A stretch of 64,000 nt of DNA from Sipunculus nudus (Eukaryota > Annelida > Sipuncula > Golfingiida > Sipunculidae): contig CM049321.1 of the NCBI GenBank assembly GCA_026874595.1, forward strand, positions 2,788,479-2,852,478, in the 5' to 3' direction. Numbering within the stretch: the stretch's first letter is position 1; each line of letters opens with the position of its first letter. Made by a program: the position numbers and the translations under genes. Shown here piece after piece: positions 1 to 27,230 of the stretch. The notes below the pieces were generated by a model. That model was not told the origin of the DNA, searched no databases, and saw only the letters and a program-made list of their open reading frames with translations.

Positions 1-1347
1 TCAATTCCATGTCCTTTGTATTTGAAGCAATGTATTCTTGAGGTGAAGGTACACGACAGTTGAGCAAAAGTTTAAGGCTCCTGTGACCGATGATTTGGGA
101 CACGACTCATTAAAATGAACATGAAACTGAAAAAATGGGAAGGGATGATTCTTCCAGCACACAGTTCAGAATAACACTTAATATAATTTCCAATTTATAA
201 CAGAGCAATGAACTCCCAAATCAGAATCAATTCCATGTCCTTTGTATTTGAAGCAATGTATTCTTGAGGTGAAGGTACACGATAGTTGAACAAAAGTTTA
301 AGGCTCCTGTGACCGATGATTTGGGACACGACTCATTAAAATGAACATGAAACTGAAAAATGGGAAGGGATGATTCTCCCAGCACACAGTTCAGAATAAC
401 ACTTAATATAATTTCCAATTGATAATAGAGCAATGAACTCCCAAATCAGAATCAATTCTATGTCCTTTGTCTTTGAAGCAATGTATTCTTCAGGTGAAGG
501 TACACGACAGTTGTACAAAAGTTTAAGGCTCCTGTGACCGATGATTTGGGACACGACTCATTAAAATGAACATGAAACTGAAAAATGGGAAGGTATAATC
601 TTCCCAGCACACAGTCAGAATATCACTTAATATAATTTCCAATTTATAATAGAGCAATGAACTCCCAAATCAGAATCAATTCCATGTCCTTTGTATTTAA
701 AGCAATGTATTCTTGAGGTGAAGGTACACGACAGTTGAGCAAAAGTTTAAGGCTCCTGTGACCGATGATTTGGGACACGACTCTTAAAATGAACATGAAA
801 CTGAAAAATGGGAAGGGATAATCCTCCCAGCACACAGTCAGAATATCACTTAATATAATTTCCAATTTATAATAGAGCAATGAAATCTCAAATCAGAATC
901 AATTCTATGTCCTTTGTATTTGAAGCAATGTATTCTTGAGGTGAAGGTACACGACAGTTGATCAAAAGTTTAAGGCTCCTGTGACCGATGATTTGGGACA
1001 CGACTCATTAATATGAACATGAAACTGAAAAATGGGAAGGGATGATTCTCCCAGCACACAGTCAGAAAAACACTTAATATAATTTCCAATTTATAATAGA
1101 GCAATGAACTCCCAAATCAGAATCAATTCCATGTCCTTTGTATTTGAAGCAATGTATTCTGGAGGTGAAGGAACACGATAGTTGAGCAAAAGTTTAAGGC
1201 TCCTGTGACCGATGATTTGGGACACGACTCATTAAAATGAACATGAAACTGAAAAATGGGAAGGGATGATCCTCCCAGCACTCAGTCAGAATAACACTTA
1301 ATATAATTTTCCAATTTATAAAAGAGCAATGAACTCTCAAATCAGAA

Positions 1348-4300
1348 TCAATTCTATGTCCTTTGTATTTGAAGCAATGTATTCTTGAGGTGAAGGTACA
1401 CGACAGTTGAGCAAAAGTTTAAGGCTCCTGTGACCGATGATTTGGGACACGTCTCATTAAAATAAACATGTAACTGAAAAATGGGAAGGGATGATTCTTC
1501 CAGCACACAGTCAGAATAACACTTAATATAATTTTCCAATTTATAATAGAGCAATAAACTCCCAAATCAGAATCAATTCCATGTCCTTTGTATTTGAAGC
1601 AATGTATTCTTGAGGTGAAGGTACACGACAGTTGAACAAAAGTTTAAGGCTCCTGTGACCGATGATTTGGGACACGACTCATTAAAATGAACATGAAACT
1701 GAAAAATGGGAAGGGATGATTCTCCCAGCACACAGTTCAGAATAACACTTAATATAATTTTCCAATTTATAAAAGAGCAATGAACTCCCAAATCAGAATC
1801 AATTCTATGTCCTTTGTATTTGAAGCAATGTATTCTTGAGGTGAAGGTACACGACAGTTGAGCAAAAGTTTAAGGCTCCTATGACTGATGATTTGGGACA
1901 CGACTCATTAAAAAGAACATGAAACTGAAAAATGGGAAGGGATAATCCTCCCAGCACACAGTCAGAATATCACTTAATATAATTTCCAATTTATAATAGA
2001 GCAATGAAATCTCAAACCAGAATCAATTTTATGTCCTTTGTATTTGAAGCAATGTATTCTTGAGGTGAAGGTACACGATAGTTGAGCAAAAGTTTAAGGC
2101 TCCTGTGACCGATGATTAGGGACACGACTCATTAAAATGAACCTGAAACTAAAAAATGGGAAGGGATGATCCTCCAAGCACACAGTTCAGAATAACACTT
2201 AATATAATTTCCAATTTATAATAGAGCAATGAACTCCCAAATCAGAATCAATTCTATGTCCTTTGTCTTTGAAGCAATGTATTCTTCAGGTGAAGGTACA
2301 CGACAGTTGAACAAAAGTTTAAGGCTCCTGTGACCGATGATTTGGGACACGACTCATTAAAATGAACATGTAACTGAAAAATTGGAAGGGATGATTCTCC
2401 CAGCACACAGTCAGAATATCACTTAATATAATTTCCAATTTATATAAGAGCAATGAACTCCCAAATTAGAATCAATTCTATGTCCTTTGTATTTGAAGCA
2501 ATGTAATCTTGAGGTAAAGGTACACGACAGTCGAGCAAAAGTTTAAGGCTCCTGTGACCGATGATTTGGGACACGACTCATTAAAATAAACCTGTAACTC
2601 AAAAATGGGAAGGGATGATTCTCCCAGCACACAGTCAGAAAAACACTTAATATAATTTTCCAATTTATAAAAGAGCAATGAACTCCCAAATCAGAATCAA
2701 TTCTATGTCCTTTGTATTTGAAGCAATGTATTCTTGAGGTGAAGGTACACGACAGTTGAGCAAAAGTTTAAGGCCCCTGTGACTGATGATTTGGGACACG
2801 ACTCATTAAAAAGAACATGAAACTGAAAAATGGGAAGGGATAATCCTCCCAGCACACAGTCAGAATATCACTTAATATAATTTCCAATTTATAATAGAGC
2901 AATGAAATCTCAAATCAGAATCAATTCTATGTCCTTTGTATTTGAAGCAATGTATTCTTGAGGTGAAGGTACACGACAGTTGATCAAAAGTTTAAGGCTC
3001 CTGTGACCGATGATTTGGGACACGACTCATTAATATGAACATGAAACTGAAAAATGGGAAGGGATGATTCTCCCAGCACACAGTCAGAAAAACACTTAAT
3101 ATAATTTCCAATTTATAATAGAGCAATGAACTCCCAAATCAGAATCAATTCCATGTCCTTTGTATTTGAAGCAATGTATTCTTGAGGTGAAGGAACACGA
3201 TAGTTGAGCAAAGGTTTAAGGCTCCTGTGACCGATGATTTGGGACACGACTCATTAAAATGAACATGAAACTGAAAAATGGGAAGGGATGATCCTCCCAG
3301 CACTCAGTCAGAATAACACTTAATATAATTTTCCAATTTATAAAAGAGCAATGAACTCTCAAATCAGAATCAATTCTATGTCCTTTGTATTTGAAGCAAT
3401 GTATTCTTGAGGTGAAGGTACACGACAGTTGAGCAAAAGTTTAAGGCTCCTGTGACCGATGATTTGGGACACGTCTCATTAAAATAAACATGTAACTGAA
3501 AAATGGGAAGGGATGATTCTTCCAGCACACAGTCAGAATAACACTTAATATAATTTTCCAATTTATAATAGAGCAATAAACTCCCAAATCAGAATCAATT
3601 CCATGTCCTTTGTATTTGAAGCAATGTATTCTTGAGGTGAAGGTACACGACAGTTGAACAAAAGTTTAAGGCTCCTGTGACCGATGATTTGGGACACGAC
3701 TCATTAAAATGAACATGAAACTGAAAAATGGGAAGGGATGATTCTCCCAGCACACAGTTCAGAATAACACTTAATATAATTTTCCAATTTATAAAAGAGC
3801 AATGAACTCCCAAATCAGAATCAATTCTATGTCCTTTGTATTTGAAGCAATGTATTCTTGAGGTGAAGGTACACGACAGTTGAGCAAAAGTTTAAGGCTC
3901 CTATGACTGATGATTTGGGACACGACTCATTAAAAAGAACATGAAACTGAAAAATGGGAAGGGATAATCCTCCCAGCACACAGTCAGAATATCACTTAAT
4001 ATAATTTCCAATTTATAATAGAGCAATGAAATCTCAAACCAGAATCAATTTTATGTCCTTTGTATTTGAAGCAATGTATTCTTGAGGTGAAGGTACACGA
4101 TAGTTGAGCAAAAGTTTAAGGCTCCTGTGACCGATGATTAGGGACACGACTCATTAAAATGAACCTGAAACTAAAAAATGGGAAGGGATGATCCTCCAAG
4201 CACACAGTTCAGAATAACACTTAATATAATTTCCAATTTATAATAGAGCAATGAACTCCCAAATCAGAATCAATTCTATGTCCTTTGTCTTTGAAGCAAT

Positions 4301-6232
4301 GTATTCTTCAGGTGAAGGTACACGACAGTTGAACAAAAGTTTAAGGCTCCTGTGACCGATGATTTGGGACACGACTCATTAAAATGAACATGTAACTGAA
4401 AAATTGGAAGGGATGATTCTCCCAGCACACAGTCAGAATATCACTTAATATAATTTCCAATTTATATAAGAGCAATGAACTCCCAAATTAGAATCAATTC
4501 TATGTCCTTTGTATTTGAAGCAATGTAATCTTGAGGTAAAGGTACACGACAGTCGAGCAAAAGTTTAAGGCTCCTGTGACCGATGATTTGGGACACGACT
4601 CATTAAAATAAACCTGTAACTCAAAAATGGGAAGGGATGATTCTCCCAGCACACAGTCAGAAAAACACTTAATATAATTTTCCAATTTATAAAAGAGCAA
4701 TGAACTCCCAAATCAGAATCAATTCTATGTCCTTTGTATTTGAAGCAATGTATTCTTGAGGTGAAGGTACACGACAGTTGAGCAAAAGTTTAAGGCCCCT
4801 GTGACTGATGATTTGGGACACGACTCATTAAAAAGAACATGAAACTGAAAAATGGGAAGGGATAATCCTCCCAGCACACAGTCAGAATATCACTTAATAT
4901 AATTTCCAATTTATAATAGAGCAATGAAATCTCAAATCAGAATCAATTCTATGTCCTTTGTATTTGAAGCAATGTATTCTTGAGGTGAAGGTACACGACA
5001 GTTGATCAAAAGTTTAAGGCTCCTGTGACCGATGATTTGGGACACGACTCATTAATATGAACATGAAACTGAAAAATGGGAAGGGATGATTCTCCCAGCA
5101 CACAGTCAGAAAAACACTTAATATAATTTCCAATTTATAATAGAGCAATGAACTCCCAAATCAGAATCAATTCCATGTCCTTTGTATTTGAAGCAATGTA
5201 TTCTTGAGGTGAAGGAACACGATAGTTGAGCAAAGGTTTAAGGCTCCTGTGACCGATGATTTGGGACACGACTCATTAAAATGAACATGAAACTGAAAAA
5301 TGGGAAGGGATGATCCTCCCAGCACTCAGTCAGAATAACACTTAATATAATTTTCCAATTTATAAAAGAGCAATGAACTCTCAAATCAGAATCAATTCTA
5401 TGTCCTTTGTATTTGAAGCAATGTATTCTTGAGGTGAAGGTACACGACAGTTGAGCAAAAGTTTAAGGCTCCTGTGACCGATGATTTGGGACACGTCTCA
5501 TTAAAATAAACATGTAACTGAAAAATGGGAAGGGATGATTCTTCCAGCACACAGTCAGAATAACACTTAATATAATTTTCCAATTTATAATAGAGCAATA
5601 AACTCCCAAATCAGAATCAATTCCATGTCCTTTGTATTTGAAGCAATGTATTCTTGAGGTGAAGGTACACGACAGTTGAACAAAAGTTTAAGGCTCCTGT
5701 GACCGATGATTTGGGACACGACTCATTCAAATGAACATGAAACTGAAAAATGGGAAGGGATGATTCTCCCAGCACACAGTTCAGAATAACACTTAATATA
5801 ATTTTCCAATTTATAAAAGAGCAATGAACTCCCAAATCAGAATCAATTCTATGTCCTTTGTATTTGAAGCAATGTATTCTTGAGGTGAAGGTACACGACA
5901 GTTGAGCAAAAGTTTAAGGCTCCTATGACTGGTGATTTGGGACACGACTCATTAAAAAGAACATGAAACTGAAAAATGGGAAGGGATAATCCTCCCAGCA
6001 CACAGTCAGAATATCACTTAATATAATTTCCAATTTATAATAGAGCAATGAAATCTCAAACCAGAATCAATTCTATGTCCTTTGTCTTTGAAGCAATGTA
6101 TTCTTCAGGTGAAGGTACACGACAGTTGAACAAAAGTTTAAGGCTCCTGTGACCGATGATTTGGGACACGACTCATTAAAATGAACATGTAACTGAAAAA
6201 TTGGAAGGGATGATTCTCCCAGCACACAGTCA
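1348..6232. repeat. satellite super-block 1 (9-mer higher-order repeat, copies 1-3)
   Basis: A diagnostic monomer carrying CACGTCTCATTAAAATAAAC recurs at 1348, 3370 and 5392, exactly 2022 bp apart, so nine monomers make one higher-order unit. The two full units (1348-3369 and 3370-5391) are almost identical. The third starts the same way, then carries CATTCAAATG and ACTGGTGATTT variants and a fused monomer near 6067 that skips one repeat. From position 1 to about 6232 the sequence matches 10773 to about 17004 with a constant 10772-bp offset; the first clear mismatch is AACAC versus ATCAC near 6233. Confidence 0.9.
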
Positions 6233-7979
6233 GAATAACACTTAATATAATTTTCCAATTTATATAGGAGCAATGAACTCCCAAATCAGAATCAATTCTA
6301 TGTCCTTTGTATTTGAAGCAATGTATTCTTCAGGTGAAGGTACACGACAGTTGAGCAAAAGTTTAAGGCTCCTGTGACCGATGATTTGGGACACGACTCA
6401 TTAAAATGAACATGTAACTGAAAAATGGGTAGGGATGATCCTCCCAGCAAACAGTTCAGAATAACACTTTATATAATTTCCAATTTGTAATAGAGCAATG
6501 AACTCTCAAATCAGAATCAATTCTATGTCCATTGTATTTGAAGCAATGTATTCTTGAAATGAAGGCACACGACAGTTGAGCAAAAGTTTAAGGCTCCTGT
6601 GACCGATGATTCGGGACACGACTCATTAAAATGAACATGAAACTGAAAAATGGGAAGGGATGATCCTCCCAGCACACAGTTCAGAATAACACTTAATATA
6701 ATTTCTAATTTATAATAGAGCAATGAACTCTCAAATCAGAATAAATTCTACGTCCTTTGTATTTGAAGCAATGTATTCTTGAGGTGAAGGTACACGACAG
6801 TTAAGCAAAACTTTAAGGCTCCTTTGACCGATGATTCGGGACACGACTCATTAAAATGAACATGAAACTAAAAAATGGGAAGGGATGATCCTCCAAGCAC
6901 ACAGTTCAGAATAACACTTAATATAATTTCCAATTTATAATAGAGCAATGAACTCCCAAATCAGAATCAATTCTATGTCCTTTGTCTTTGAAGCAATGTA
7001 TTCTTCAGGTCAAGGTACACGACAGTTAAGCAAAAGTTTAAGGCTCCTGTGACCGATGATTTGGGACACCACTCATTAAAATGAACATGTAACTGAAAAA
7101 TGGGAAGGGATGATTCTCCCAGCACACAGTCAAAATAACACTTAATATAATTTTCCAATTTATATAAGAGCAATGAACTCCCAAATCAGAATCACTTCTA
7201 AGTCCTTTGTATTTGAAACAATGTATTCTTGAGGTGAAGGTACACGACAGTTGAGCAAAAGTTTAAGGCTCCTGTGACCGATGATTTGGGACACGACTCA
7301 TTGAAATGAACATGTAACTGAAAAATGGGAAGGGATGGTTCTCCCAGCACACAGAATAACACTTAATATAATTTCCAATTTATAATAGAGCAATGAACTC
7401 CCAAATCAGAATCAATTCCATGTCCTTTCTATTTGAAGCAATGTATTCTTGAGGTGAAGGTACACGACAGTTGAGCAAAAGTTTAAGGCTCCTGTGACCG
7501 ATGATTTGGGACACGACTCTTAAAATGAACATGAAACTGAAAAATGGGAAGTTATGATCCTCCCAGCACACAGTTCAGAATAACACTTAATATAATTTCC
7601 AATTTATAATAGAGCAGTGAACTCTTAAATCAGAATCAATTCTATGTCCTTTGTATTTGAAGCAATGTATTCTTGAGGTGAAGGTACACGACAGTTGAGC
7701 AAAAGTTTAAGGCTCCTGTGACCGATGATTTGGGACACGACTCATTAAAATGAACATGAAACTGAAAAATGGGAAGGGATGATCCTCCCAGCAAACAGTT
7801 CAGAATAACACTTAATATAATTTCCAATTTATAATAGAGCAATGAACTCCCAAATCAGAATCAATTCCATGTCCTTTGTCTTTGAAGCAATGTATTCTTC
7901 AGGTCAAGGTACACGACAGTTGAGCAAAAGTTTAAGGCTCCTGTGACCGATGATTTGGGACACGACTCATTAAAATGAA
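6233..7979. repeat. satellite monomers without clear higher-order order
   Basis: About eight monomers follow super-block 1 and do not match the tail that follows super-blocks 2 and 3. They are more heterogeneous than the rest of the array, with private changes such as a monomer beginning GTCCATTGTATTT near 6530, CGGGACACG variants, and a shortened monomer near 7350 that lacks the usual CAGTCAG spacing. This stretch looks like an older part of the array, less affected by recent homogenisation. Confidence 0.7.
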
Positions 7980-10900
7980 CATGAAACTGAAAAATGGGAA
8001 GGGATGATCCTCCCAGCAAACAGTTCAGAATAACACTTAATATAATTTCCAATTTATAATAGAGCAATGGACTCCCAAATCAGGATCAATTCCATGTCCT
8101 TTGTCTTTGAAGCAATGTATTCTTAAGGTCAAGGTACACGACAGTTGAGCAAAAGTTTAAGGCTCCTGTGACCGATGATTTGGGACACGACTCATTAAAA
8201 TGAACATGACACTGAAAAATGGGAAGTTATGATCCTCCCAGCACACAGTTCAGAATAACACTTAATATAATTTCCAATTTATAATAGAGAAGTGAACTCT
8301 TAAATCAGAATGAATTCTATGTCCTTTGTATTTGAAGCAATGTATTCTTGAGGTGAAGGTACACGACAGTTGAGCAAAAGTTTAAGGCTCCTGTGACCGA
8401 TGATTTGGGACACGACTCATTAAAATGAACATGAAACTGAAAAATGGGAAGGGATGATCCTCCCAGCACACAGTCAGAATATCACTTAATATAATTTCCA
8501 ATTTATAATAGAGCAATGAAATCTCAAACCAGAATCAATTTTATGTCCTTTGTATTTGAAGCAATGTATTCTTGAGGTGAAGGTACACTACAGTTGATCA
8601 AAAGTTTAAGGCTCCTGTGACCGATGATTTGGGACACGACTCATTAAAATGAACATGAAACTGAAAAATGGGAAGGGATGATCCTCCCAGCACACAGTCA
8701 GAATAACACCTAATATGATTTTTCAATTTATAATAGAGCAATGAACTGTCAAATCAGAATCAATTCTATGTCCTTTGTATTTGAAGCAATGTATTCTTGA
8801 GGAGAAGGTACACGACAGTTGATCCAAAGTTTAAGGCTCCTGTGACCGATGATTTGGGACACGACTCATTAAAATAAACATGTAACTGAAAAATGGGAAG
8901 GGATGATTCTCCCAGCACACAGAATAACACTTAATATAATTTCCAATTTATAATAGAGCAATGAACTCCCAAATCAGAATCAATTCCATGTCCTTTGTAT
9001 TTGAAGCAATGTATTCTTGAGGTGAAGGTACACGACAGTTGAGCAAAAGTTTAAGGCTCCTGTGACCGATGATTTGGGACACGACTCATTAAAATGAACA
9101 TGAAACTGAAAAAATGGGAAGGGATGATTCTTCCAGCACACAGTTCAGAATAACACTTAATATAATTTCCAATTTATAACAGAGCAATGAACTCCCAAAT
9201 CAGAATCAATTCCATGTCCTTTGTATTTGAAGCAATGTATTCTTGAGGTGAAGGTACACGATAGTTGAACAAAAGTTTAAGGCTCCTGTGACCGATGATT
9301 TGGGACACGACTCATTAAAATGAACATGAAACTGAAAAATGGGAAGGGATGATTCTCCCAGCACACAGTTCAGAATAACACTTAATATAATTTCCAATTG
9401 ATAATAGAGCAATGAACTCCCAAATCAGAATCAATTCTATGTCCTTTGTCTTTGAAGCAATGTATTCTTCAGGTGAAGGTACACGACAGTTGTACAAAAG
9501 TTTAAGGCTCCTGTGACCGATGATTTGGGACACGACTCATTAAAATGAACATGAAACTGAAAAATGGGAAGGTATAATCTTCCCAGCACACAGTCAGAAT
9601 ATCACTTAATATAATTTCCAATTTATAATAGAGCAATGAACTCCCAAATCAGAATCAATTCCATGTCCTTTGTATTTAAAGCAATGTATTCTTGAGGTGA
9701 AGGTACACGACAGTTGAGCAAAAGTTTAAGGCTCCTGTGACCGATGATTTGGGACACGACTCTTAAAATGAACATGAAACTGAAAAATGGGAAGGGATGA
9801 TCCTCCCAGCAAACAGTTCAGAATAACACTTAATATAATTTCCAATTTATAATAGAGCAATGGACTCCCAAATCAGGATCAATTCCATGTCCTTTGTCTT
9901 TGAAGCAATGTATTCTTAAGGTCAAGGTACACGACAGTTGAGCAAAAGTTTAAGGCTCCTGTGACCGATGATTTGGGACACGACTCATTAAAATGAACAT
10001 GACACTGAAAAATGGGAAGTTATGATCCTCCCAGCACACAGTTCAGAATAACACTTAATATAATTTCCAATTTATAATAGAGAAGTGAACTCTTAAATCA
10101 GAATGAATTCTATGTCCTTTGTATTTGAAGCAATGTATTCTTGAGGTGAAGGTACACGACAGTTGAGCAAAAGTTTAAGGCTCCTGTGACCGATGATTTG
10201 GGACACGACTCATTAAAATGAACATGAAACTGAAAAATGGGAAGGGATGATCCTCCCAGCACACAGTCAGAATATCACTTAATATAATTTCCAATTTATA
10301 ATAGAGCAATGAAATCTCAAACCAGAATCAATTTTATGTCCTTTGTATTTGAAGCAATGTATTCTTGAGGTGAAGGTACACTACAGTTGATCAAAAGTTT
10401 AAGGCTCCTGTGACCGATGATTTGGGACACGACTCATTAAAATGAACATGAAACTGAAAAATGGGAAGGGATGATCCTCCCAGCACACAGTCAGAATAAC
10501 ACCTAATATGATTTTTCAATTTATAATAGAGCAATGAACTGTCAAATCAGAATCAATTCTATGTCCTTTGTATTTGAAGCAATGTATTCTTGAGGAGAAG
10601 GTACACGACAGTTGATCCAAAGTTTAAGGCTCCTGTGACCGATGATTTGGGACACGACTCATTAAAATAAACATGTAACTGAAAAATGGGAAGGGATGAT
10701 TCTCCCAGCACACAGAATAACACTTAATATAATTTCCAATTTATAATAGAGCAATGAACTCCCAAATCAGAATCAATTCCATGTCCTTTGTATTTGAAGC
10801 AATGTATTCTTGAGGTGAAGGTACACGACAGTTGAGCAAAAGTTTAAGGCTCCTGTGACCGATGATTTGGGACACGACTCATTAAAATGAACATGAAACT

Positions 10901-11565
10901 GAAAAAATGGGAAGGGATGATTCTTCCAGCACACAGTTCAGAATAACACTTAATATAATTTCCAATTTATAACAGAGCAATGAACTCCCAAATCAGAATC
11001 AATTCCATGTCCTTTGTATTTGAAGCAATGTATTCTTGAGGTGAAGGTACACGATAGTTGAACAAAAGTTTAAGGCTCCTGTGACCGATGATTTGGGACA
11101 CGACTCATTAAAATGAACATGAAACTGAAAAATGGGAAGGGATGATTCTCCCAGCACACAGTTCAGAATAACACTTAATATAATTTCCAATTGATAATAG
11201 AGCAATGAACTCCCAAATCAGAATCAATTCTATGTCCTTTGTCTTTGAAGCAATGTATTCTTCAGGTGAAGGTACACGACAGTTGTACAAAAGTTTAAGG
11301 CTCCTGTGACCGATGATTTGGGACACGACTCATTAAAATGAACATGAAACTGAAAAATGGGAAGGTATAATCTTCCCAGCACACAGTCAGAATATCACTT
11401 AATATAATTTCCAATTTATAATAGAGCAATGAACTCCCAAATCAGAATCAATTCCATGTCCTTTGTATTTAAAGCAATGTATTCTTGAGGTGAAGGTACA
11501 CGACAGTTGAGCAAAAGTTTAAGGCTCCTGTGACCGATGATTTGGGACACGACTCTTAAAATGAA
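7980..11565. repeat. recent tandem duplication of a 1793-bp eight-monomer block
   Basis: The segment from roughly 7980 to 9772 is repeated from roughly 9773 to 11565 at a fixed 1793-bp offset. The rare string AGAGCAATGGACTCCCAAAT lies at 8061 and again at 9854, and a monomer with a distinctive GATAATAGAGC end lies near 9400 and again near 11190. Breakpoints are placed only to within a few tens of bases because both fall inside similar monomers. Positions 1 to about 780 carry a third copy of part of the same block. Confidence 0.85.
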
Positions 11566-12119
11566 CATGAAACTGAAAAATGGGAAGGGATAATCCTCCC
11601 AGCACACAGTCAGAATATCACTTAATATAATTTCCAATTTATAATAGAGCAATGAAATCTCAAATCAGAATCAATTCTATGTCCTTTGTATTTGAAGCAA
11701 TGTATTCTTGAGGTGAAGGTACACGACAGTTGATCAAAAGTTTAAGGCTCCTGTGACCGATGATTTGGGACACGACTCATTAATATGAACATGAAACTGA
11801 AAAATGGGAAGGGATGATTCTCCCAGCACACAGTCAGAAAAACACTTAATATAATTTCCAATTTATAATAGAGCAATGAACTCCCAAATCAGAATCAATT
11901 CCATGTCCTTTGTATTTGAAGCAATGTATTCTGGAGGTGAAGGAACACGATAGTTGAGCAAAAGTTTAAGGCTCCTGTGACCGATGATTTGGGACACGAC
12001 TCATTAAAATGAACATGAAACTGAAAAATGGGAAGGGATGATCCTCCCAGCACTCAGTCAGAATAACACTTAATATAATTTTCCAATTTATAAAAGAGCA
12101 ATGAACTCTCAAATCAGAA

Positions 12120-15100
12120 TCAATTCTATGTCCTTTGTATTTGAAGCAATGTATTCTTGAGGTGAAGGTACACGACAGTTGAGCAAAAGTTTAAGGCTCC
12201 TGTGACCGATGATTTGGGACACGTCTCATTAAAATAAACATGTAACTGAAAAATGGGAAGGGATGATTCTTCCAGCACACAGTCAGAATAACACTTAATA
12301 TAATTTTCCAATTTATAATAGAGCAATAAACTCCCAAATCAGAATCAATTCCATGTCCTTTGTATTTGAAGCAATGTATTCTTGAGGTGAAGGTACACGA
12401 CAGTTGAACAAAAGTTTAAGGCTCCTGTGACCGATGATTTGGGACACGACTCATTAAAATGAACATGAAACTGAAAAATGGGAAGGGATGATTCTCCCAG
12501 CACACAGTTCAGAATAACACTTAATATAATTTTCCAATTTATAAAAGAGCAATGAACTCCCAAATCAGAATCAATTCTATGTCCTTTGTATTTGAAGCAA
12601 TGTATTCTTGAGGTGAAGGTACACGACAGTTGAGCAAAAGTTTAAGGCTCCTATGACTGATGATTTGGGACACGACTCATTAAAAAGAACATGAAACTGA
12701 AAAATGGGAAGGGATAATCCTCCCAGCACACAGTCAGAATATCACTTAATATAATTTCCAATTTATAATAGAGCAATGAAATCTCAAACCAGAATCAATT
12801 TTATGTCCTTTGTATTTGAAGCAATGTATTCTTGAGGTGAAGGTACACGATAGTTGAGCAAAAGTTTAAGGCTCCTGTGACCGATGATTAGGGACACGAC
12901 TCATTAAAATGAACCTGAAACTAAAAAATGGGAAGGGATGATCCTCCAAGCACACAGTTCAGAATAACACTTAATATAATTTCCAATTTATAATAGAGCA
13001 ATGAACTCCCAAATCAGAATCAATTCTATGTCCTTTGTCTTTGAAGCAATGTATTCTTCAGGTGAAGGTACACGACAGTTGAACAAAAGTTTAAGGCTCC
13101 TGTGACCGATGATTTGGGACACGACTCATTAAAATGAACATGTAACTGAAAAATTGGAAGGGATGATTCTCCCAGCACACAGTCAGAATATCACTTAATA
13201 TAATTTCCAATTTATATAAGAGCAATGAACTCCCAAATTAGAATCAATTCTATGTCCTTTGTATTTGAAGCAATGTAATCTTGAGGTAAAGGTACACGAC
13301 AGTCGAGCAAAAGTTTAAGGCTCCTGTGACCGATGATTTGGGACACGACTCATTAAAATAAACCTGTAACTCAAAAATGGGAAGGGATGATTCTCCCAGC
13401 ACACAGTCAGAAAAACACTTAATATAATTTTCCAATTTATAAAAGAGCAATGAACTCCCAAATCAGAATCAATTCTATGTCCTTTGTATTTGAAGCAATG
13501 TATTCTTGAGGTGAAGGTACACGACAGTTGAGCAAAAGTTTAAGGCCCCTGTGACTGATGATTTGGGACACGACTCATTAAAAAGAACATGAAACTGAAA
13601 AATGGGAAGGGATAATCCTCCCAGCACACAGTCAGAATATCACTTAATATAATTTCCAATTTATAATAGAGCAATGAAATCTCAAATCAGAATCAATTCT
13701 ATGTCCTTTGTATTTGAAGCAATGTATTCTTGAGGTGAAGGTACACGACAGTTGATCAAAAGTTTAAGGCTCCTGTGACCGATGATTTGGGACACGACTC
13801 ATTAATATGAACATGAAACTGAAAAATGGGAAGGGATGATTCTCCCAGCACACAGTCAGAAAAACACTTAATATAATTTCCAATTTATAATAGAGCAATG
13901 AACTCCCAAATCAGAATCAATTCCATGTCCTTTGTATTTGAAGCAATGTATTCTTGAGGTGAAGGAACACGATAGTTGAGCAAAGGTTTAAGGCTCCTGT
14001 GACCGATGATTTGGGACACGACTCATTAAAATGAACATGAAACTGAAAAATGGGAAGGGATGATCCTCCCAGCACTCAGTCAGAATAACACTTAATATAA
14101 TTTTCCAATTTATAAAAGAGCAATGAACTCTCAAATCAGAATCAATTCTATGTCCTTTGTATTTGAAGCAATGTATTCTTGAGGTGAAGGTACACGACAG
14201 TTGAGCAAAAGTTTAAGGCTCCTGTGACCGATGATTTGGGACACGTCTCATTAAAATAAACATGTAACTGAAAAATGGGAAGGGATGATTCTTCCAGCAC
14301 ACAGTCAGAATAACACTTAATATAATTTTCCAATTTATAATAGAGCAATAAACTCCCAAATCAGAATCAATTCCATGTCCTTTGTATTTGAAGCAATGTA
14401 TTCTTGAGGTGAAGGTACACGACAGTTGAACAAAAGTTTAAGGCTCCTGTGACCGATGATTTGGGACACGACTCATTAAAATGAACATGAAACTGAAAAA
14501 TGGGAAGGGATGATTCTCCCAGCACACAGTTCAGAATAACACTTAATATAATTTTCCAATTTATAAAAGAGCAATGAACTCCCAAATCAGAATCAATTCT
14601 ATGTCCTTTGTATTTGAAGCAATGTATTCTTGAGGTGAAGGTACACGACAGTTGAGCAAAAGTTTAAGGCTCCTATGACTGATGATTTGGGACACGACTC
14701 ATTAAAAAGAACATGAAACTGAAAAATGGGAAGGGATAATCCTCCCAGCACACAGTCAGAATATCACTTAATATAATTTCCAATTTATAATAGAGCAATG
14801 AAATCTCAAACCAGAATCAATTTTATGTCCTTTGTATTTGAAGCAATGTATTCTTGAGGTGAAGGTACACGATAGTTGAGCAAAAGTTTAAGGCTCCTGT
14901 GACCGATGATTAGGGACACGACTCATTAAAATGAACCTGAAACTAAAAAATGGGAAGGGATGATCCTCCAAGCACACAGTTCAGAATAACACTTAATATA
15001 ATTTCCAATTTATAATAGAGCAATGAACTCCCAAATCAGAATCAATTCTATGTCCTTTGTCTTTGAAGCAATGTATTCTTCAGGTGAAGGTACACGACAG

Positions 15101-17004
15101 TTGAACAAAAGTTTAAGGCTCCTGTGACCGATGATTTGGGACACGACTCATTAAAATGAACATGTAACTGAAAAATTGGAAGGGATGATTCTCCCAGCAC
15201 ACAGTCAGAATATCACTTAATATAATTTCCAATTTATATAAGAGCAATGAACTCCCAAATTAGAATCAATTCTATGTCCTTTGTATTTGAAGCAATGTAA
15301 TCTTGAGGTAAAGGTACACGACAGTCGAGCAAAAGTTTAAGGCTCCTGTGACCGATGATTTGGGACACGACTCATTAAAATAAACCTGTAACTCAAAAAT
15401 GGGAAGGGATGATTCTCCCAGCACACAGTCAGAAAAACACTTAATATAATTTTCCAATTTATAAAAGAGCAATGAACTCCCAAATCAGAATCAATTCTAT
15501 GTCCTTTGTATTTGAAGCAATGTATTCTTGAGGTGAAGGTACACGACAGTTGAGCAAAAGTTTAAGGCCCCTGTGACTGATGATTTGGGACACGACTCAT
15601 TAAAAAGAACATGAAACTGAAAAATGGGAAGGGATAATCCTCCCAGCACACAGTCAGAATATCACTTAATATAATTTCCAATTTATAATAGAGCAATGAA
15701 ATCTCAAATCAGAATCAATTCTATGTCCTTTGTATTTGAAGCAATGTATTCTTGAGGTGAAGGTACACGACAGTTGATCAAAAGTTTAAGGCTCCTGTGA
15801 CCGATGATTTGGGACACGACTCATTAATATGAACATGAAACTGAAAAATGGGAAGGGATGATTCTCCCAGCACACAGTCAGAAAAACACTTAATATAATT
15901 TCCAATTTATAATAGAGCAATGAACTCCCAAATCAGAATCAATTCCATGTCCTTTGTATTTGAAGCAATGTATTCTTGAGGTGAAGGAACACGATAGTTG
16001 AGCAAAGGTTTAAGGCTCCTGTGACCGATGATTTGGGACACGACTCATTAAAATGAACATGAAACTGAAAAATGGGAAGGGATGATCCTCCCAGCACTCA
16101 GTCAGAATAACACTTAATATAATTTTCCAATTTATAAAAGAGCAATGAACTCTCAAATCAGAATCAATTCTATGTCCTTTGTATTTGAAGCAATGTATTC
16201 TTGAGGTGAAGGTACACGACAGTTGAGCAAAAGTTTAAGGCTCCTGTGACCGATGATTTGGGACACGTCTCATTAAAATAAACATGTAACTGAAAAATGG
16301 GAAGGGATGATTCTTCCAGCACACAGTCAGAATAACACTTAATATAATTTTCCAATTTATAATAGAGCAATAAACTCCCAAATCAGAATCAATTCCATGT
16401 CCTTTGTATTTGAAGCAATGTATTCTTGAGGTGAAGGTACACGACAGTTGAACAAAAGTTTAAGGCTCCTGTGACCGATGATTTGGGACACGACTCATTC
16501 AAATGAACATGAAACTGAAAAATGGGAAGGGATGATTCTCCCAGCACACAGTTCAGAATAACACTTAATATAATTTTCCAATTTATAAAAGAGCAATGAA
16601 CTCCCAAATCAGAATCAATTCTATGTCCTTTGTATTTGAAGCAATGTATTCTTGAGGTGAAGGTACACGACAGTTGAGCAAAAGTTTAAGGCTCCTATGA
16701 CTGGTGATTTGGGACACGACTCATTAAAAAGAACATGAAACTGAAAAATGGGAAGGGATAATCCTCCCAGCACACAGTCAGAATATCACTTAATATAATT
16801 TCCAATTTATAATAGAGCAATGAAATCTCAAACCAGAATCAATTCTATGTCCTTTGTCTTTGAAGCAATGTATTCTTCAGGTGAAGGTACACGACAGTTG
16901 AACAAAAGTTTAAGGCTCCTGTGACCGATGATTTGGGACACGACTCATTAAAATGAACATGTAACTGAAAAATTGGAAGGGATGATTCTCCCAGCACACA
17001 GTCA
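12120..17004. repeat. satellite super-block 2 (near-identical to super-block 1)
   Basis: The diagnostic monomer recurs at 12120, 14142 and 16164, again 2022 bp apart. The third copy carries the same CATTCAAATG and ACTGGTGATTT changes and the same fused monomer as in super-block 1. The match with 1348-6232 is collinear at a 10772-bp offset, so both blocks descend from one duplication at least 6.2 kb long. At its right end the block runs into monomers (17005 to about 18570) that also follow super-block 3. Confidence 0.9.
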
Positions 17005-19087
17005 GAATATCACTTAATATAATTTCCAATTTATATAAGAGCAATGAACTCCCAAATTAGAATCAATTCTATGTCCTTTGTATTTGAAGCAATGTAATCT
17101 TGAGGTGAAGGTACACGACAGTCGAGCAAAAGTTTAAGGCTCCTGTGACCGATGATTTGGGACACGACTCATTAAAATGAACATGAAACTGAAAAATGGG
17201 AAGGGATGATCCTCCCAGCACACAGTCAGAATAACACTTAATATAATTTTCCAATTTATAATAGAGCAATGAACTCTCGAATCAGAATCAATTCTATGTC
17301 CTTTGTATTTGAAGCAATGTATTTCTTGAGGTGAAGGTACACGACAGTTGAGCAAAAGTTTAAGGCTCCTTTGACCGATGATTTGGGACACGACTCATTA
17401 AAATAAACCTGTAACTCAAAAATGGGAAGGGATGATTCTCCCAGCACACAGTCAGAAAAACACTTAATATAATTTTCCAATTTATAAAAGAGCAATGAAC
17501 TCCCAAATCAGAATCAATTCTATGTCCTTTGTATTTGAAGCAATGTATTCTTGAGGTGAAGGTACACGACAGTTGAGCAAAAGTTTAAGGCCCCTGTGAC
17601 TGATGATTTGGGACACGACTCATTAAAAAGAACATGAAACTGAAAAATGGGAAGGGAGGATCCTCCCAGCACACAGTCAGAATAACACTTAATATAATTT
17701 CCAATTTATAATAGAGCAATGAACTCTCAAATCAGAATCAATTCTATGTCCTTTGTATTTGAAGCAATGTATTCTTCAGGTCAAGGTACACGACAGTTGA
17801 GCAAAAGTTTAAGGCTCCTGTGACCGATGATTTGGGACACGACTCATTAAAATGAACATGAAACTGAAAAATGGGAAGGGATGATTCTCCCAGCACACAG
17901 TCAGAATAACACTTAATATAATTTTCCAATTTATAATAGAGCAATGAACTCTCAAATCAGAATCAATTCTATGTCATTTGTATTTGAAGCAATGTATTCT
18001 TCAGGTCAAGGTACACGACAGTTGAGCAAAAGTTTAAGGCTCCTGTGACCGATGATTTGGGACACGACTCATTAAAATGAACATGTAACTGAAAAATGGG
18101 AAGGGATGATCCTCCCAGCAAACAGTTCAGAATAACACTTAATATAATTTCCAATTTATAATAGAGCAATGAACTCTCAAATCAGAATCAATTCTATGTC
18201 CTTTGTATTTGAAGCGATGTATTCTTGAGGTGAAGGTACACGACAGTTGAGCAAAAGTTTAAGGCTCCTGTGACTGAAGATTTGGGACACGACTCATTAA
18301 AATGAATATGTAACTGAAAAATGGGAAGGGATGATCCTCCCAGCAAACAGTTCAGAATAACACTTAATATAATTTCCAATTTATAATAGAGCAATGAACT
18401 CCCAAATCAGAATCAATTCTATGTCCTTTGTAATTGAAGCAATGTATTCTTGAGGTGAAGGTACACTACAGTTGATCAAAAGTTTAAGGCTCCTGTGACC
18501 GATGATTTGGGACACGACTCATTAAAATGAACATGAAACTGAAAAATGGGAAGGGATGATCCTCCCAGCACACAGTCAGAATAACACTTTATATAATTTT
18601 CCAATTTATAATAGAGCAATGAACTCTCAAATCAGAATCAATTCTATGTCCTTTGTATTTGAAGCAATGTATTCTTGAGGTGAAGGTACACGACAGTTGA
18701 GCAAAAGTTTAAGGCTCCTGTGACCGATGATTTGGGACACGACTCATTAAAATAAACATGTAACTGAAAAATGGGAAGGGATGATTCTCCCAGCACACAG
18801 TCAGAATAACACTTAATATAATTTTCCAATTTATATAAGAGCAATGAACTCCCAAATCAGAATCAATTCTATGTCCTTTGTATTTGAAGCAATGTATTCT
18901 TGAGGTGAAGGTACACGACAGTTGAGCAAAAGTTTAAGGCTCCTGTGACCGATGATTTGGGACACGACTCATTAAAATGAACATGAAACTGAAAAATGGG
19001 AAGGGATGATCCTCCCAGCACTCAGTCAGAATAACACTTAATATAATTTTCCAATTTATAAAAGAGCAATGAACTCTCAAATCAGAA

Positions 19088-22000
19088 TCAATTCTATGTC
19101 CTTTGTATTTGAAGCAATGTATTCTTGAGGTGAAGGTACACGACAGTTGAGCAAAAGTTTAAGGCTCCTGTGACCGATGATTTGGGACACGTCTCATTAA
19201 AATAAACATGTAACTGAAAAATGGGAAGGGATGATTCTTCCAGCACACAGTCAGAATAACACTTAATATAATTTTCCAATTTATAATAGAGCAATAAACT
19301 CCCAAATCAGAATCAATTCCATGTCCTTTGTATTTGAAGCAATGTATTCTTGAGGTGAAGGTACACGACAGTTGAACAAAAGTTTAAGGCTCCTGTGACC
19401 GATGATTTGGGACACGACTCATTAAAATGAACATGAAACTGAAAAATGGGAAGGGATGATTCTCCCAGCACACAGTTCAGAATAACACTTAATATAATTT
19501 TCCAATTTATAAAAGAGCAATGAACTCCCAAATCAGAATCAATTCTATGTCCTTTGTATTTGAAGCAATGTATTCTTGAGGTGAAGGTACACGACAGTTG
19601 AGCAAAAGTTTAAGGCTCCTATGACTGATGATTTGGGACACGACTCATTAAAAAGAACATGAAACTGAAAAATGGGAAGGGATAATCCTCCCAGCACACA
19701 GTCAGAATATCACTTAATATAATTTCCAATTTATAATAGAGCAATGAAATCTCAAACCAGAATCAATTTTATGTCCTTTGTATTTGAAGCAATGTATTCT
19801 TGAGGTGAAGGTACACGATAGTTGAGCAAAAGTTTAAGGCTCCTGTGACCGATGATTAGGGACACGACTCATTAAAATGAACCTGAAACTAAAAAATGGG
19901 AAGGGATGATCCTCCAAGCACACAGTTCAGAATAACACTTAATATAATTTCCAATTTATAATAGAGCAATGAACTCCCAAATCAGAATCAATTCTATGTC
20001 CTTTGTCTTTGAAGCAATGTATTCTTCAGGTGAAGGTACACGACAGTTGAACAAAAGTTTAAGGCTCCTGTGACCGATGATTTGGGACACGACTCATTAA
20101 AATGAACATGTAACTGAAAAATTGGAAGGGATGATTCTCCCAGCACACAGTCAGAATATCACTTAATATAATTTCCAATTTATATAAGAGCAATGAACTC
20201 CCAAATTAGAATCAATTCTATGTCCTTTGTATTTGAAGCAATGTAATCTTGAGGTGAAGGTACACGACAGTCGAGCAAAAGTTTAAGGCTCCTGTGACCG
20301 ATGATTTGGGACACGACTCATTAAAATAAACCTGTAACTCAAAAATGGGAAGGGATGATTCTCCCAGCACACAGTCAGAAAAACACTTAATATAATTTTC
20401 CAATTTATAAAAGAGCAATGAACTCCCAAATCAGAATCAATTCTATGTCCTTTGTATTTGAAGCAATGTATTCTTGAGGTGAAGGTACACGACAGTTGAG
20501 CAAAAGTTTAAGGCCCCTGTGACTGATGATTTGGGACACGACTCATTAAAAAGAACATGAAACTGAAAAATGGGAAGGGATAATCCTCCCAGCACACAGT
20601 CAGAATATCACTTAATATAATTTCCAATTTATAATAGAGCAATGAAATCTCAAATCAGAATCAATTCTATGTCCTTTGTATTTGAAGCAATGTATTCTTG
20701 AGGTGAAGGTACACGACAGTTGATCAAAAGTTTAAGGCTCCTGTGACCGATGATTTGGGACACGACTCATTAATATGAACATGAAACTGAAAAATGGGAA
20801 GGGATGATTCTCCCAGCACACAGTCAGAAAAACACTTAATATAATTTCCAATTTATAATAGAGCAATGAACTCCCAAATCAGAATCAATTCCATGTCCTT
20901 TGTATTTGAAGCAATGTATTCTTGAGGTGAAGGAACACGATAATTGAGCAAAAGTTTAAGGCTCCTGTGACCGATGATTTGGGACACGACTCATTAAAAT
21001 GAACATGAAACTGAAAAATGGGAAGGGATGATCCTCCCAGCACTCAGTCAGAATAACACTTAATATAATTTTCCAATTTATAAAAGAGCAATGAACTCTC
21101 AAATCAGAATCAATTCTATGTCCTTTGTATTTGAAGCAATGTATTCTTGAGGTGAAGGTACACGACAGTTGAGCAAAAGTTTAAGGCTCCTGTGACCGAT
21201 GATTTGGGACACGTCTCATTAAAATAAACATGTAACTGAAAAATGGGAAGGGATGATTCTTCCAGCACACAGTCAGAATAACACTTAATATAATTTTCCA
21301 ATTTATAATAGAGCAATAAACTCCCAAATCAGAATCAATTCCATGTCCTTTGTATTTGAAGCAATGTATTCTTGAGGTGAAGGTACACGACAGTTGAACA
21401 AAAGTTTAAGGCTCCTGTGACCGATGATTTGGGACACGACTCATTAAAATGAACATGAAACTGAAAAATGGGAAGGGATGATTCTCCCAGCACACAGTTC
21501 AGAATAACACTTAATATAATTTTCCAATTTATAAAAGAGCAATGAACTCCCAAATCAGAATCAATTCTATGTCCTTTGTATTTGAAGCAATGTATTCTTG
21601 AGGTGAAGGTACACGACAGTTGAGCAAAAGTTTAAGGCTCCTATGACTGATGATTTGGGACACGACTCATTAAAAAGAACATGAAACTGAAAAATGGGAA
21701 GGGATAATCCTCCCAGCACACAGTCAGAATATCACTTAATATAATTTCCAATTTATAATAGAGCAATGAAATCTCAAACCAGAATCAATTTTATGTCCTT
21801 TGTATTTGAAGCAATGTATTCTTGAGGTGAAGGTACACGATAGTTGAGCAAAAGTTTAAGGCTCCTGTGACCGATGATTAGGGACACGACTCATTAAAAG
21901 AACCTGAAACTAAAAAATGGGAAGGGATGATCCTCCAAGCACACAGTTCAGAATAACACTTAATATAATTTCCAATTTATAATAGAGCAATGAACTCCCA

Positions 22001-25000
22001 AATCAGAATCAATTCTATGTCCTTTGTCTTTGAAGCAATGTATTCTTCAGGTGAAGGTACACGACAGTTGAACAAAAGTTTAAGGCTCCTGTGACCGATG
22101 ATTTGGGACACGACTCATTAAAATGAACATGTAACTGAAAAATTGGAAGGGATGATTCTCCCAGCACACAGTCAGAATATCACTTAATATAATTTCCAAT
22201 TTATATAAGAGCAATGAACTCCCAAATTAGAATCAATTCTATGTCCTTTGTATTTGAAGCAATGTAATCTTGAGGTGAAGGTACACGACAGTCGAGCAAA
22301 AGTTTAAGGCTCCTGTGACCGATGATTTGGGACACGACTCATTAAAATAAACCTGTAACTCAAAAATGGGAAGGGATGATTCTCCCAGCACACAGTCAGA
22401 AAAACACTTAATATAATTTTCCAATTTATAAAAGAGCAATGAACTCCCAAATCAGAATCAATTCTATGTCCTTTGTATTTGAAGCAATGTATTCTTGAGG
22501 TGAAGGTACACGACAGTTGATCAAAAGTTTAAGGCTCCTGTGACCGATGATTTGGGACACGACTCATTAATATGAACATGAAACTGAAAAATGGGAAGGG
22601 ATGATTCTCCCAGCACACAGTCAGAAAAACACTTAATATAATTTCCAATTTATAATAGAGCAATGAACTCCCAAATCAGAATCAATTCCATGTCCTTTGT
22701 ATTTGAAGCAATGTATTCTTGAGGTGAAGGAACACGATAATTGAGCAAAAGTTTAAGGCTCCTGTGACCGATGATTTGGGACACGACTCATTAAAATGAA
22801 CATGAAACTGAAAAATGGGAAGGGATGATCCTCCCAGCACTCAGTCAGAATAACACTTAATATAATTTTCCAATTTATAAAAGAGCAATGAACTCTCAAA
22901 TCAGAATCAATTCTATGTCCTTTGTATTTGAAGCAATGTATTCTTGAGGTGAAGGTACACGACAGTTGAGCAAAAGTTTAAGGCTCCTGTGACCGATGAT
23001 TTGGGACACGTCTCATTAAAATAAACATGTAACTGAAAAATGGGAAGGGATGATTCTTCCAGCACACAGTCAGAATAACACTTAATATAATTTTCCAATT
23101 TATAATAGAGCAATAAACTCCCAAATCAGAATCAATTCCATGTCCTTTGTATTTGAAGCAATGTATTCTTGAGGTGAAGGTACACGACAGTTGAACAAAA
23201 GTTTAAGGCTCCTGTGACCGATGATTTGGGACACGACTCATTAAAATGAACATGAAACTGAAAAATGGGAAGGGATGATTCTCCCAGCACACAGTTCAGA
23301 ATAACACTTAATATAATTTTCCAATTTATAAAAGAGCAATGAACTCCCAAATCAGAATCAATTCTATGTCCTTTGTATTTGAAGCAATGTATTCTTGAGG
23401 TGAAGGTACACGACAGTTGAGCAAAAGTTTAAGGCTCCTATGACTGATGATTTGGGACACGACTCATTAAAAAGAACATGAAACTGAAAAATGGGAAGGG
23501 ATAATCCTCCCAGCACACAGTCAGAATATCACTTAATATAATTTCCAATTTATAATAGAGCAATGAAATCTCAAACCAGAATCAATTTTATGTCCTTTGT
23601 ATTTGAAGCAATGTATTCTTGAGGTGAAGGTACACGATAGTTGAGCAAAAGTTTAAGGCTCCTGTGACCGATGATTAGGGACACGACTCATTAAAAGAAC
23701 CTGAAACTAAAAAAATGGGAAGGGATGATCCTCCAAGCACACAGTTCAGAATAACACTTAATATAATTTCCAATTTATAATAGAGCAATGAACTCCCAAA
23801 TCAGAATCAATTCTATGTCCTTTGTCTTTGAAGCAATGTATTCTTCAGGTGAAGGTACACGACAGTTGAACAAAAGTTTAAGGCTCCTGTGACCGATGAT
23901 TTGGGACACGACTCATTAAAATGAACATGTAACTGAAAAATTGGAAGGGATGATTCTCCCAGCACACAGTCAGAATATCACTTAATATAATTTCCAATTT
24001 ATATAAGAGCAATGAACTCCCAAATTAGAATCAATTCTATGTCCTTTGTATTTGAAGCAATGTAATCTTGAGGTGAAGGTACACGACAGTCGAGCAAAAG
24101 TTTAAGGCTCCTGTGACCGATGATTTGGGACACGACTCATTAAAATAAACCTGTAACTCAAAAATGGGAAGGGATGATTCTCCCAGCACACAGTCAGAAA
24201 AACACTTAATATAATTTTCCAATTTATAAAAGAGCAATGAACTCCCAAATCAGAATCAATTCTATGTCCTTTGTATTTGAAGCAATGTATTCTTGAGGTG
24301 AAGGTACACGACAGTTGATCAAAAGTTTAAGGCTCCTGTGACCGATGATTTGGGACACGACTCATTAATATGAACATGAAACTGAAAAATGGGAAGGGAT
24401 GATTCTCCCAGCACACAGTCAGAAAAACACTTAATATAATTTCCAATTTATAATAGAGCAATGAACTCCCAAATCAGAATCAATTCCATGTCCTTTGTAT
24501 TTGAAGCAATGTATTCTTGAGGTGAAGGAACACGATAGTTGAGCAAAAGTTTAAGGCTCCTGTGACCGATGATTTGGGACACGACTCATTAAAATGAACA
24601 TGAAACTGAAAAATGGGAAGGGATGATCATCCCAGCACTCAGTCAGAATAACACTTAATATAATTTTCCAATTTATAAAAGAGCAATGAACTCTCAAATC
24701 AGAATCAATTCTATGTCCTTTGTATTTGAAGCAATGTATTCTTGAGGTGAAGGTACACGACCGTTGAGCAAAAGTTTAAGGCTCCTGTGACCGATGATTT
24801 GGGACACGTCTCATTAAAATAAACATGTAACTGAAAAATGGGAAGGGATGATTCTTCCAGCACACAGTCAGAATAACACTTAATATAATTTTCCAATTTA
24901 TAATAGAGCAATAAACTCCCAAATCAGAATCAATTCCATGTCCTTTGTATTTGAAGCAATGTATTCTTGAGGTGAAGGTACACGACAGTTGAACAAAAGT

Positions 25001-25600
25001 TTAAGGCTCCTGTGACCGATGATTTGGGACACGACTCATTCAAATGAACATGAAACTGAAAAATGGGAAGGGATGATTCTCCCAGCACACAGTTCAGAAT
25101 AACACTTAATATAATTTTCCAATTTATAAAAGAGCAATGAACTCCCAAATCAGAATCAATTCTATGTCCTTTGTATTTGAAGCAATGTATTCTTGAGGTG
25201 AAGGTACACGACAGTTGAGCAAAAGTTTAAGGCTCCTATGACTGGTGATTTGGGACACGACTCATTAAAAAGAACATGAAACTGAAAAATGGGAAGGGAT
25301 AATCCTCCCAGCACACAGTCAGAATATCACTTAATATAATTTCCAATTTATAATAGAGCAATGAAATCTCAAACCAGAATCAATTCTATGTCCTTTGTCT
25401 TTGAAGCAATGTATTCTTCAGGTGAAGGTACACGACAGTTGAACAAAAGTTTAAGGCTCCTGTGACCGATGATTTGGGACACGACTCATTAAAATGAACA
25501 TGTAACTGAAAAATTGGAAGGGATGATTCTCCCAGCACACAGTCAGAATATCACTTAATATAATTTCCAATTTATATAAGAGCAATGAACTCCCAAATTA
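19088..25600. repeat. satellite super-block 3 with two contracted 8-mer units
   Basis: The diagnostic monomer lies at 19088, 21110, 22907 and 24705. Intervals are 2022, 1797 and 1798 bp, so the second and third units lost one monomer, the type with AAGGCCCCTGTGACTG. Both contracted units also share a 2-bp deletion (ATTAAAAGAACCTG, near 21894 and 23692), so the 8-mer arose once and was then copied. The last unit carries the same variant changes that end super-blocks 1 and 2. Confidence 0.88.
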
Positions 25601-27115
25601 GAATCAATTCTATGTCCTTTGTATTTGAAGCAATGTATTCTTGAGGTGAAGGTACACGACAGTCGAGCAAAAGTTTAAGGCTCCTGTGACCGATGATTTG
25701 GGACACGACTCATTAAAATGAACATGAAACTGAAAAATGGGAAGGGATGATCCTCCCAGCACACAGTCAGAATAACACTTAATATAATTTTCCAATTTAT
25801 AATAGAGCAATGAACTCTCGAATCAGAATCAATTCTATGTCCTTTGTATTTGAAGCAATATATTTCTTGAGGTGAAGGTACACGACAGTTGAGCAAAAGT
25901 TTAAGGCTCCTTTGACCGATGATTTGGGACACGACTCATTAAAATAAACCTGTAACTCAAAAATGGGAAGGGATGATTCTCCCAGCACACAGTCAGAAAA
26001 ACACTTAATATAATTTTCCAATTTATAAAAGAGCAATGAACTCCCAAATCAGAATCAATTCTATGTCCTTTGTATTTGAAGCAATGTATTCTTGAGGTGA
26101 AGGTACACGACAGTTGAGCAAAAGTTTAAGGCCCCTGTGACTGATGATTTGGGACACGACTCATTAAAAAGAACATGAAACTGAAAAATGGGAAGGGAGG
26201 ATCCTCCCAGCACACAGTCAGAATAACACTTAATATAATTTCCAATTTATAATAGAGCAATGAACTCCCAAATCAGAATCAATTCTATGTCCTTTGTATT
26301 TGAAGCAATGTATTCTTCAGGTCAAGGTACACGACAGTTGAGCAAAAGTTTAAGGCTCCTGTGACCGATGATTTAGGACACGACTCATTAAAATGAACAT
26401 GAAACTGAAAAATGGGAAGGGATGATTCTCCCAGCACACAGTCAGAATAACACTTAATATAATTTTCCAATTTATAATAGAGCAATGAACTCTCAAATCA
26501 GAATCAATTCTATGTCCTTTGTATTTGAAGCAATGTATTCTTCAGGTCAAGGTACACGACAGTTGAGCAAAAGTTTAAGGCTCCTGTGACCGATGATTTG
26601 GGACACGACTCATTAAAATGAACATGTAACTGAAAAATGGGAAGGGATGATCCTCCCAGCAAACAGTTCAGAATAACACTTAATATAATTTCCAATTTAT
26701 AATAGAGCAATGAACTCTCAAATCAGAATCAATTCTATGTCCTTTGTATTTGAAGCGATGTATTCTTGAGGTGAAGGTACACGACAGTTGAGCAAAAGTT
26801 TAAGGCTCCTGTGACTGAAGATTTGGGACACGACTCATTAAAATGAATATGTAACTGAAAAATGGGAAGGGATGATCCTCCCAGCAAACAGTTCAGAATA
26901 ACACTTAATATAATTTCCAATTTATAATAGAGCAATGAACTCCCAAATCAGAATCAATTCTATGTCCTTTGTAATTGAAGCAATGTATTCTTGAGGTGAA
27001 GGTACACTACAGTTGATCAAAAGTTTAAGGCTCCTGTGACCGATGATTTGGGACACGACTCATTAAAATGAACATGAAACTGAAAAATGGGAAGGGATGA
27101 TCCTCCCAGCACACA
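24640..27115. repeat. duplicate of satellite segment ~16100-18574
   Basis: From about 24640 to the right edge of the array the sequence follows about 16100-18574 at an 8541-bp offset, including the shared monomers with CTCGAATCAG and GTGACTGAAGATTTGG. Only scattered single-base differences are visible, for example AAAAG versus AAAGG upstream of the block and CATTTG versus CCTTTG at 17973. The copies separate again near the array end, where CAGTTCAG replaces CAGTCAG. Confidence 0.82.
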
Positions 27116-27133
27116 GTTCAGAATAACACTTAC

Positions 27134-27230
27134 AAGGGTAAGGTTCATTAGAAGAAGTTTGCAAAGCTTTTTATAAGTGTGATCGTCGACACTATGAATT
27201 TTATATACCCCCTTAAGATGAACATTCAGC
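27134..27230 (-). CDS. possible internal exon abutting the satellite edge
   Basis: Read on the minus strand, a pyrimidine-rich tract ending TATCTTTTCCAG is followed by 97 bases that stay open for 32 codons and then meet the donor sequence GTAAGT. One base completes the first codon and the exon ends in phase 0. The peptide begins LNVHLKGVYKIHSVDDH and ends KLCKLLLMNLTL. I do not recognise a family. The donor is unusual: its G (27133) is unique DNA, while its T and the following AAGT come from the last satellite monomer, so any intron would run straight into the 27-kb array. There is faint similarity between this segment and the satellite's own minus-strand reading (PIF..VH), so it could instead be a decayed edge monomer. 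No second exon of the same gene was identified. Confidence 0.35.

Follow-up and report, generated by a model that had tools for sequence, protein, structure and literature searches.

The 225-bp satellite at this locus is, in our reading, a young array confined to one place in the genome. A fragment of an old dispersed repeat would have been duplicated and would then have grown by in-register exchange and block copying, with no cellular role needed; we put the probability of this at about 0.8. It is probably an ordinary local expansion. Beyond this, we lean slightly towards a stronger proposal: that this is a satellite near its birth, whose nested higher-order repeat (HOR) architecture was built at a single, non-centromeric locus out of one old-repeat fragment by in-register exchange alone, while the unexpanded ancestor persists at paralogous loci. 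If that proposal is true, nested HOR architecture is by itself no mark of centromere function, and the locus cautions against taking higher-order order as the sign of a centromere when a new genome is examined. The array is complete and bounded, and the sequence it started from seems to persist, unexpanded, elsewhere in this genome, so that the path from a single copy to a nested HOR can be traced.

Monomers and nested higher-order units

The window is the whole stretch of 64,000 nucleotides that was analysed (C16:2,788,479-2,852,478). Together with the 200 kb to its left, which carry negative positions here, it gives 264 kb of local sequence; the assembly as a whole comprises 1.43 Gb in 153 contigs. 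Tandem Repeats Finder reports a period of 225 at window positions 1-27132 (120.8 copies, 94% matches), and this is the in-window part, on the plus strand, of a single array of ~225-bp monomers. These are the limits given in the preliminary description, and they are correct for the window; the array begins ~12.8 kb further left. It runs from about -12831 to 27133 (C16:2,775,647-2,815,611), is bounded on both sides and lies 2.8 Mb into the 63.5-Mb contig C16. Its length of ~39.97 kb rests on one assembly, as does the perfect 7,247-bp repeat described below.

Monomer splitting gave 178 monomers, all on the plus strand, 121 of which start within the window. Their lengths are 225 bp (92 monomers), 224 bp (53), 226 bp (19), 220 bp (7), 223 bp (5) and 228 bp (1). 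The last monomer, at the right edge, is cut to 180 bp, and each of the 177 others falls between 220 and 228 bp. The mean pairwise difference is 5.9%, or 5.7% when the cut monomer is excluded, and an exact twin is present for 115 of the 178.

Clustered at 1.35%, the 178 monomers fall into 64 classes, 39 of which have more than one member. The class that begins at 1348 has exactly ten members (1348, 3370, 5392, 12120, 14142, 16164, 19088, 21110, 22907 and 24705) and no others, precisely the positions that the preliminary description had listed for one diagnostic monomer. Steps of 2,022 bp connect 1348-3370-5392, 12120-14142-16164 and 19088-21110. The final two steps, 21110-22907-24705, are 8-mers of 1,797 and 1,798 bp.

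The 9-mer of 2,022 bp is confirmed as a higher-order unit, since similarity between its copies far exceeds that among the monomers inside it. Monomers within one 9-mer show a mean pairwise difference of 5.64%, whereas copies of the unit are nearly or fully identical: nine of nine monomers are identical between the 9-mers at 1348 and 3370, and seven of nine between those at 1348 and 19088, the remaining two being 0.4 and 0.9% apart. The four full 9-mers (at 1348, 3370, 12120 and 14142) are 0.0% apart over 54 monomer comparisons, although these copies are not independent, because those at 12120 and 14142 sit in the 10.8-kb duplicate of those at 1348 and 3370.

As the unit of the array the 9-mer holds only in part: its steps fill three blocks, and 8-mers and other orders interrupt them. 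Block 1 (899..6066, plus strand) consists of 23 monomers (61-83) of classes YZ abcdefg in 2,022-bp steps, and block 2 (11671..16838, plus strand; monomers 109-131) is its duplicate. Block 3 (19088..27132, plus strand) takes one 9-mer step and then proceeds in 8-mers; it ends with classes abcehijklm, which are shared with the sequence from 16164 onward at an offset of 8,541 bp. A second higher-order unit, an 8-mer of classes RSTEUVW plus one, occupies 8086..9878 (plus strand), recurs from 9879 at an offset of 1,793 bp and is found at -893 as well. The leftmost 53 of the 178 monomers follow a different order from the 9-mer, including a 12-monomer step of 2,691 bp that links -6802 and -4111.

The all-against-all comparison, which had been suggested at the outset, recovers 40 runs of at least three like monomers at constant offset, the longest of 31; in 200 shuffles of monomer order the longest run is 2 or 3, with a mean of 0.3 runs of at least three. 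The preliminary description had allowed that monomers might cluster without a 9-mer period; that period is found in the clusters.

The level above the 9-mer, which had likewise been claimed, is confirmed by the longest perfect repeat. Positions -1009..6237 (1..6237 within the window) are identical to 9763..17009, both on the plus strand, with differences at 0 of 7,247 sites and an offset of 10,772 bp. Super-block offsets are irregular (10,772, 8,541 and 6,968 bp). Two 9-mer steps have 4 differences in 3,147 bp. Because the 10.8-kb super-block copies are less diverged than these steps (0 in 7,247 bp), the comparison suggests that the 9-mer formed first and that the 10.8-kb duplication then carried 9-mer steps along. 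The array can fairly be called a homogenised locus over most of its length, less so at its left: the average distance to the nearest twin is 2.0% for the leftmost 20 monomers, against 0.3% both for monomers 20-169 and for the last seven whole ones. An older appearance is thus limited to the left end, the right end matching the middle in uniformity.

Probable parent repeat and proposed mode of growth

The sequence on the right of the array (27134..30433, plus strand) continues an old dispersed repeat. Within 10-kb stretches, two other loci on the same contig, L040 (C16:3.73 Mb, inverted) and L041 (C16:6.62 Mb), have the same order as the array locus, with a single monomer-like unit between the left-flank and right-flank sequences; the main pieces of the right flank are 73-80% identical. 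The L041 unit is incomplete through loss of sequence, and at each of the two loci ~280-330 extra bases precede the point where the right flank resumes. A further locus, L042 (C16:3.81 Mb), has right-flank sequence without the unit. The 1.4-kb single-unit stretch of L040 has at least 54 matches, spread over 14 contigs; identity is 63-77% for 45 of them, and the 54 count L040 as well as parts of the array and of its flanks. Distant copies on C9, C8 and C1 (63% identity), when aligned, cross the monomer site without expansion and with a shortened unit. Thus all five other copies that read across the site (two on C16 and one each on C9, C8 and C1) lack an array and carry no more than one unit, which may be whole or shortened. 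The monomer is homologous to an internal piece of the dispersed copies, with matching flanks, and from these alignments we take the repeat unit to be such a piece of an old dispersed repeat; growth is known for this copy alone. In principle, a locus that shows one unit might be an array that was collapsed.

Close relatives of the monomer are confined to the array. In the 1.43-Gb assembly a monomer 35-mer, searched on both strands with at most three mismatches, gives a complete count of 174 matches (the reversed control has 0), at a tolerance that leaves out 4 of the 178 monomers and that arrays more than three mismatches away would escape. The same pattern has 174 matches in the 264 kb of local sequence, from C16:2,775,735 to 2,815,484 and all between the array edges. 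The two counts are equal, and therefore every 35-mer match lies inside the array. A genome similarity search, which like other such searches gives lower bounds, returned faint single monomer matches on C16, C15 and C14, in surroundings that resemble the flanks of the array.

Translated matches between the flanks and the paralogous loci fall on both strands, many with stops and some short ones stop-free, and no continuous reading frame stood out among them in the dispersed repeat. A gene in the flanks was rejected because the translated matches are on both strands and many contain stops, and we read the flanks as non-coding. Nine of the longest open reading frames of the paralogous loci match no Pfam family above cut-off. 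A 294-codon frame at L042:8794-9675 (minus strand), outside the shared part, has weak phage-integrase SAM-like matches below Pfam cut-offs; a search for solved structural relatives of this frame found none, and it is perhaps part of a tyrosine-recombinase mobile element. The window holds no Rfam family at gathering score and no tRNA. The flanking DNA also contains old duplications at 65-70% identity at -18510..-13442 (3.1-3.5 kb apart), with matching stretches on the right at 29678-30442.

We propose that a ~224-bp stretch inside one copy of the dispersed repeat, which looks non-coding, would have been duplicated in tandem, as the single-unit loci suggest. The pattern of the array points to two further steps: misaligned but in-register exchange between adjacent units would have lengthened it, and runs of 8, 9, 12 and up to ~48 units would have been copied together. 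Repeated block copying of this kind would give the nested order, with the 9-mer first and the 10.8-kb duplication later. The block duplications kept register, because all 177 uncut monomers are near full length; this accords better with exchange between aligned repeats than with joining at random. We infer unequal exchange as the mechanism; homology-guided slippage or conversion would look alike. No clear direct repeat stood out as the seed of the first duplication: L040 has three shared 6-mers against 1.1 expected and none of 7, and L041 has none of 6.

Alternative explanations and surrounding sequence

Strong homogenisation and nested HOR order resemble primate centromeres, and it had been suggested that the array may mark a centromere or another homogenised locus. 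That it is a chromosome-specific centromere or neocentromere of C16, homogenised by CENP-A chromatin, nevertheless strikes us as barely credible. A centromeric satellite should occur on several chromosomes or be very long on one, whereas this array is only 40 kb long and sits at a single genomic locus; the search of the rest of the genome that had been suggested placed all 174 matches here and lends a centromere no support. Gene-like sequence lies near both edges (VWD exons ~12.7 kb to the left, a gene-like reading frame ~10.4 kb to the right). A core pattern that we take to be that of the CENP-B box has no exact occurrence on either strand of the array, and the monomer consensus misses at least three of its fixed bases. 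Moreover, a Crassostrea gigas study reports no centromere-specific repeat from centromere ChIP, a result that may not carry over to the present species (PMC8268682). With one locus, 40 kb and gene-like sequence near by, we set the centromere aside as unsupported.

The perfect 7,247-bp repeat is an outcome expected of some assembly errors, and an artefact might consist of a falsely duplicated 10.8-kb super-block or a collapsed array. We consider this unlikely: a 3.5-kb spacer separates the two 7,247-bp copies, whose surroundings in the array are not alike; differences of 0.1-0.4% are seen in several smaller nested duplications; and an artefact of this sort would not create the 9-mer itself. It is more improbable still that the satellite is borne by a mobile element of the Helitron/Helentron type known from oysters, many copies of which would then hold arrays. 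The derivation of the monomer from an old dispersed repeat would suit such an origin, but an array is seen in none of the five other copies that read across the site, and the 35-mer search of the assembly (at most three mismatches) placed close monomers nowhere else. Nor do the nine frames from the paralogous loci point to such an element, the one weak recombinase-like N-terminal domain, in L042, falling outside the shared part. Local growth of a young satellite at a single locus is the explanation that we retain.

Nothing found in the array calls for a function, and its 10-bp A/T periodicity is not raised (0.39 versus about 1.07 in the flanks). Two further candidates were rejected. As coding sequence, the array offers a longest stop-free stretch of 123 codons on the minus strand and of 43-50 codons on the plus frames, and some of its monomers have lengths not divisible by three. 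As a structured element, a single monomer folds as DNA no better than shuffled sequence (z = +1.09; equalled or bettered by 168 of 200 shuffles).

The VWD and C8 domain exons to the left lie on the minus strand at -36449..-25551, with Pfam matches in four of seven translations, one just under cut-off; tblastn finds further copies. The frame to the right, of 278 codons at 37562-38395 (minus strand), matches no Pfam family. By eye it looks like a multi-span membrane protein, and it has a 93% copy at -57634..-56828 and a 40-48% copy near -83 kb. Plus-strand frames from -25162 to -23366 appear reverse-transcriptase-like by eye, a putative assignment, and two of them gave no Pfam family. Tandem Repeats Finder reports a second array at 45303-48035 (90-bp unit, 30.5 copies, 94% matches), and the 2-kb bin 46001-48000 has a G+C content of 0.437, above its neighbours. 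A 276-bp repeat (2.6 copies, 53950-54656) has a 77-82% relative ~88 kb away at -33546..-33356.

Comparison with known satellites

Like the HORs of primate alpha satellite, the present array orders its tandem monomers into multi-monomer units with nested levels, and copies of a unit resemble one another far more closely than the monomers do among themselves. Unlike those HORs, it is 40 kb long, occurs at one locus, has monomers only ~6% apart and does not support a centromere; each block holds one or two uniform 9-mer steps, and 8-, 9- and 12-mers are mixed. Human macrosatellites and large single-locus VNTRs are large tandem arrays, each at one locus and likely to be variable in copy number. 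The present array resembles them in being large, in occupying one locus and in a predicted tendency to vary in copy number, and differs in its shorter unit and in the higher-order blocks within it.

Higher-order satellites outside primates are already in print. The statement in the preliminary description that well-ordered HORs are best known from primates is fair, but a 2017 review also records regular, mostly dimeric HORs in beetles and complex HORs in several other mammals and other insects (PMC5615363), and HOR units are mentioned in the discussion of an Antarctic scallop paper (PMC5874043); a search for HORs in PMC12692304 gave none. To place the animal itself, three muscle-myosin exons from C2 were compared with solved structures, where 3i5f is squid, 1dfk scallop and myosin-6 vertebrate. 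For the first exon squid 3i5f scores highest (194.1 bits), with myosin-6 entries (193.0) and scallop (192.8) only just behind; for the second, two myosin-6 entries share the top score (89.1), ahead of squid (87.5); for the third, scallop entries lead (86.3), then squid (85.4), the top non-mollusc reaching 75.9. The apparent mollusc of the preliminary description is plausible on these scores, and the animal may also be another spiralian. CgiSat01 of C. gigas is similar in array length: its longest stand-alone array, which contains an assembly gap, has 232 monomers and spans about 40 kb. Its monomers, too, are one to two hundred bases long (PMC8268682). Unlike the present monomer, which was found at one locus, CgiSat01 is reported there from centromeric regions on several chromosomes and from interspersed sites on chromosome arms. 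Satellites that arose from pieces of transposable elements or other repeats differ from ours in that the present parent repeat is unclassified and only one of its copies is known to have expanded; what they share with it, as the 2017 review describes them, is that an internal segment of a dispersed repeat grew in tandem (PMC5615363).
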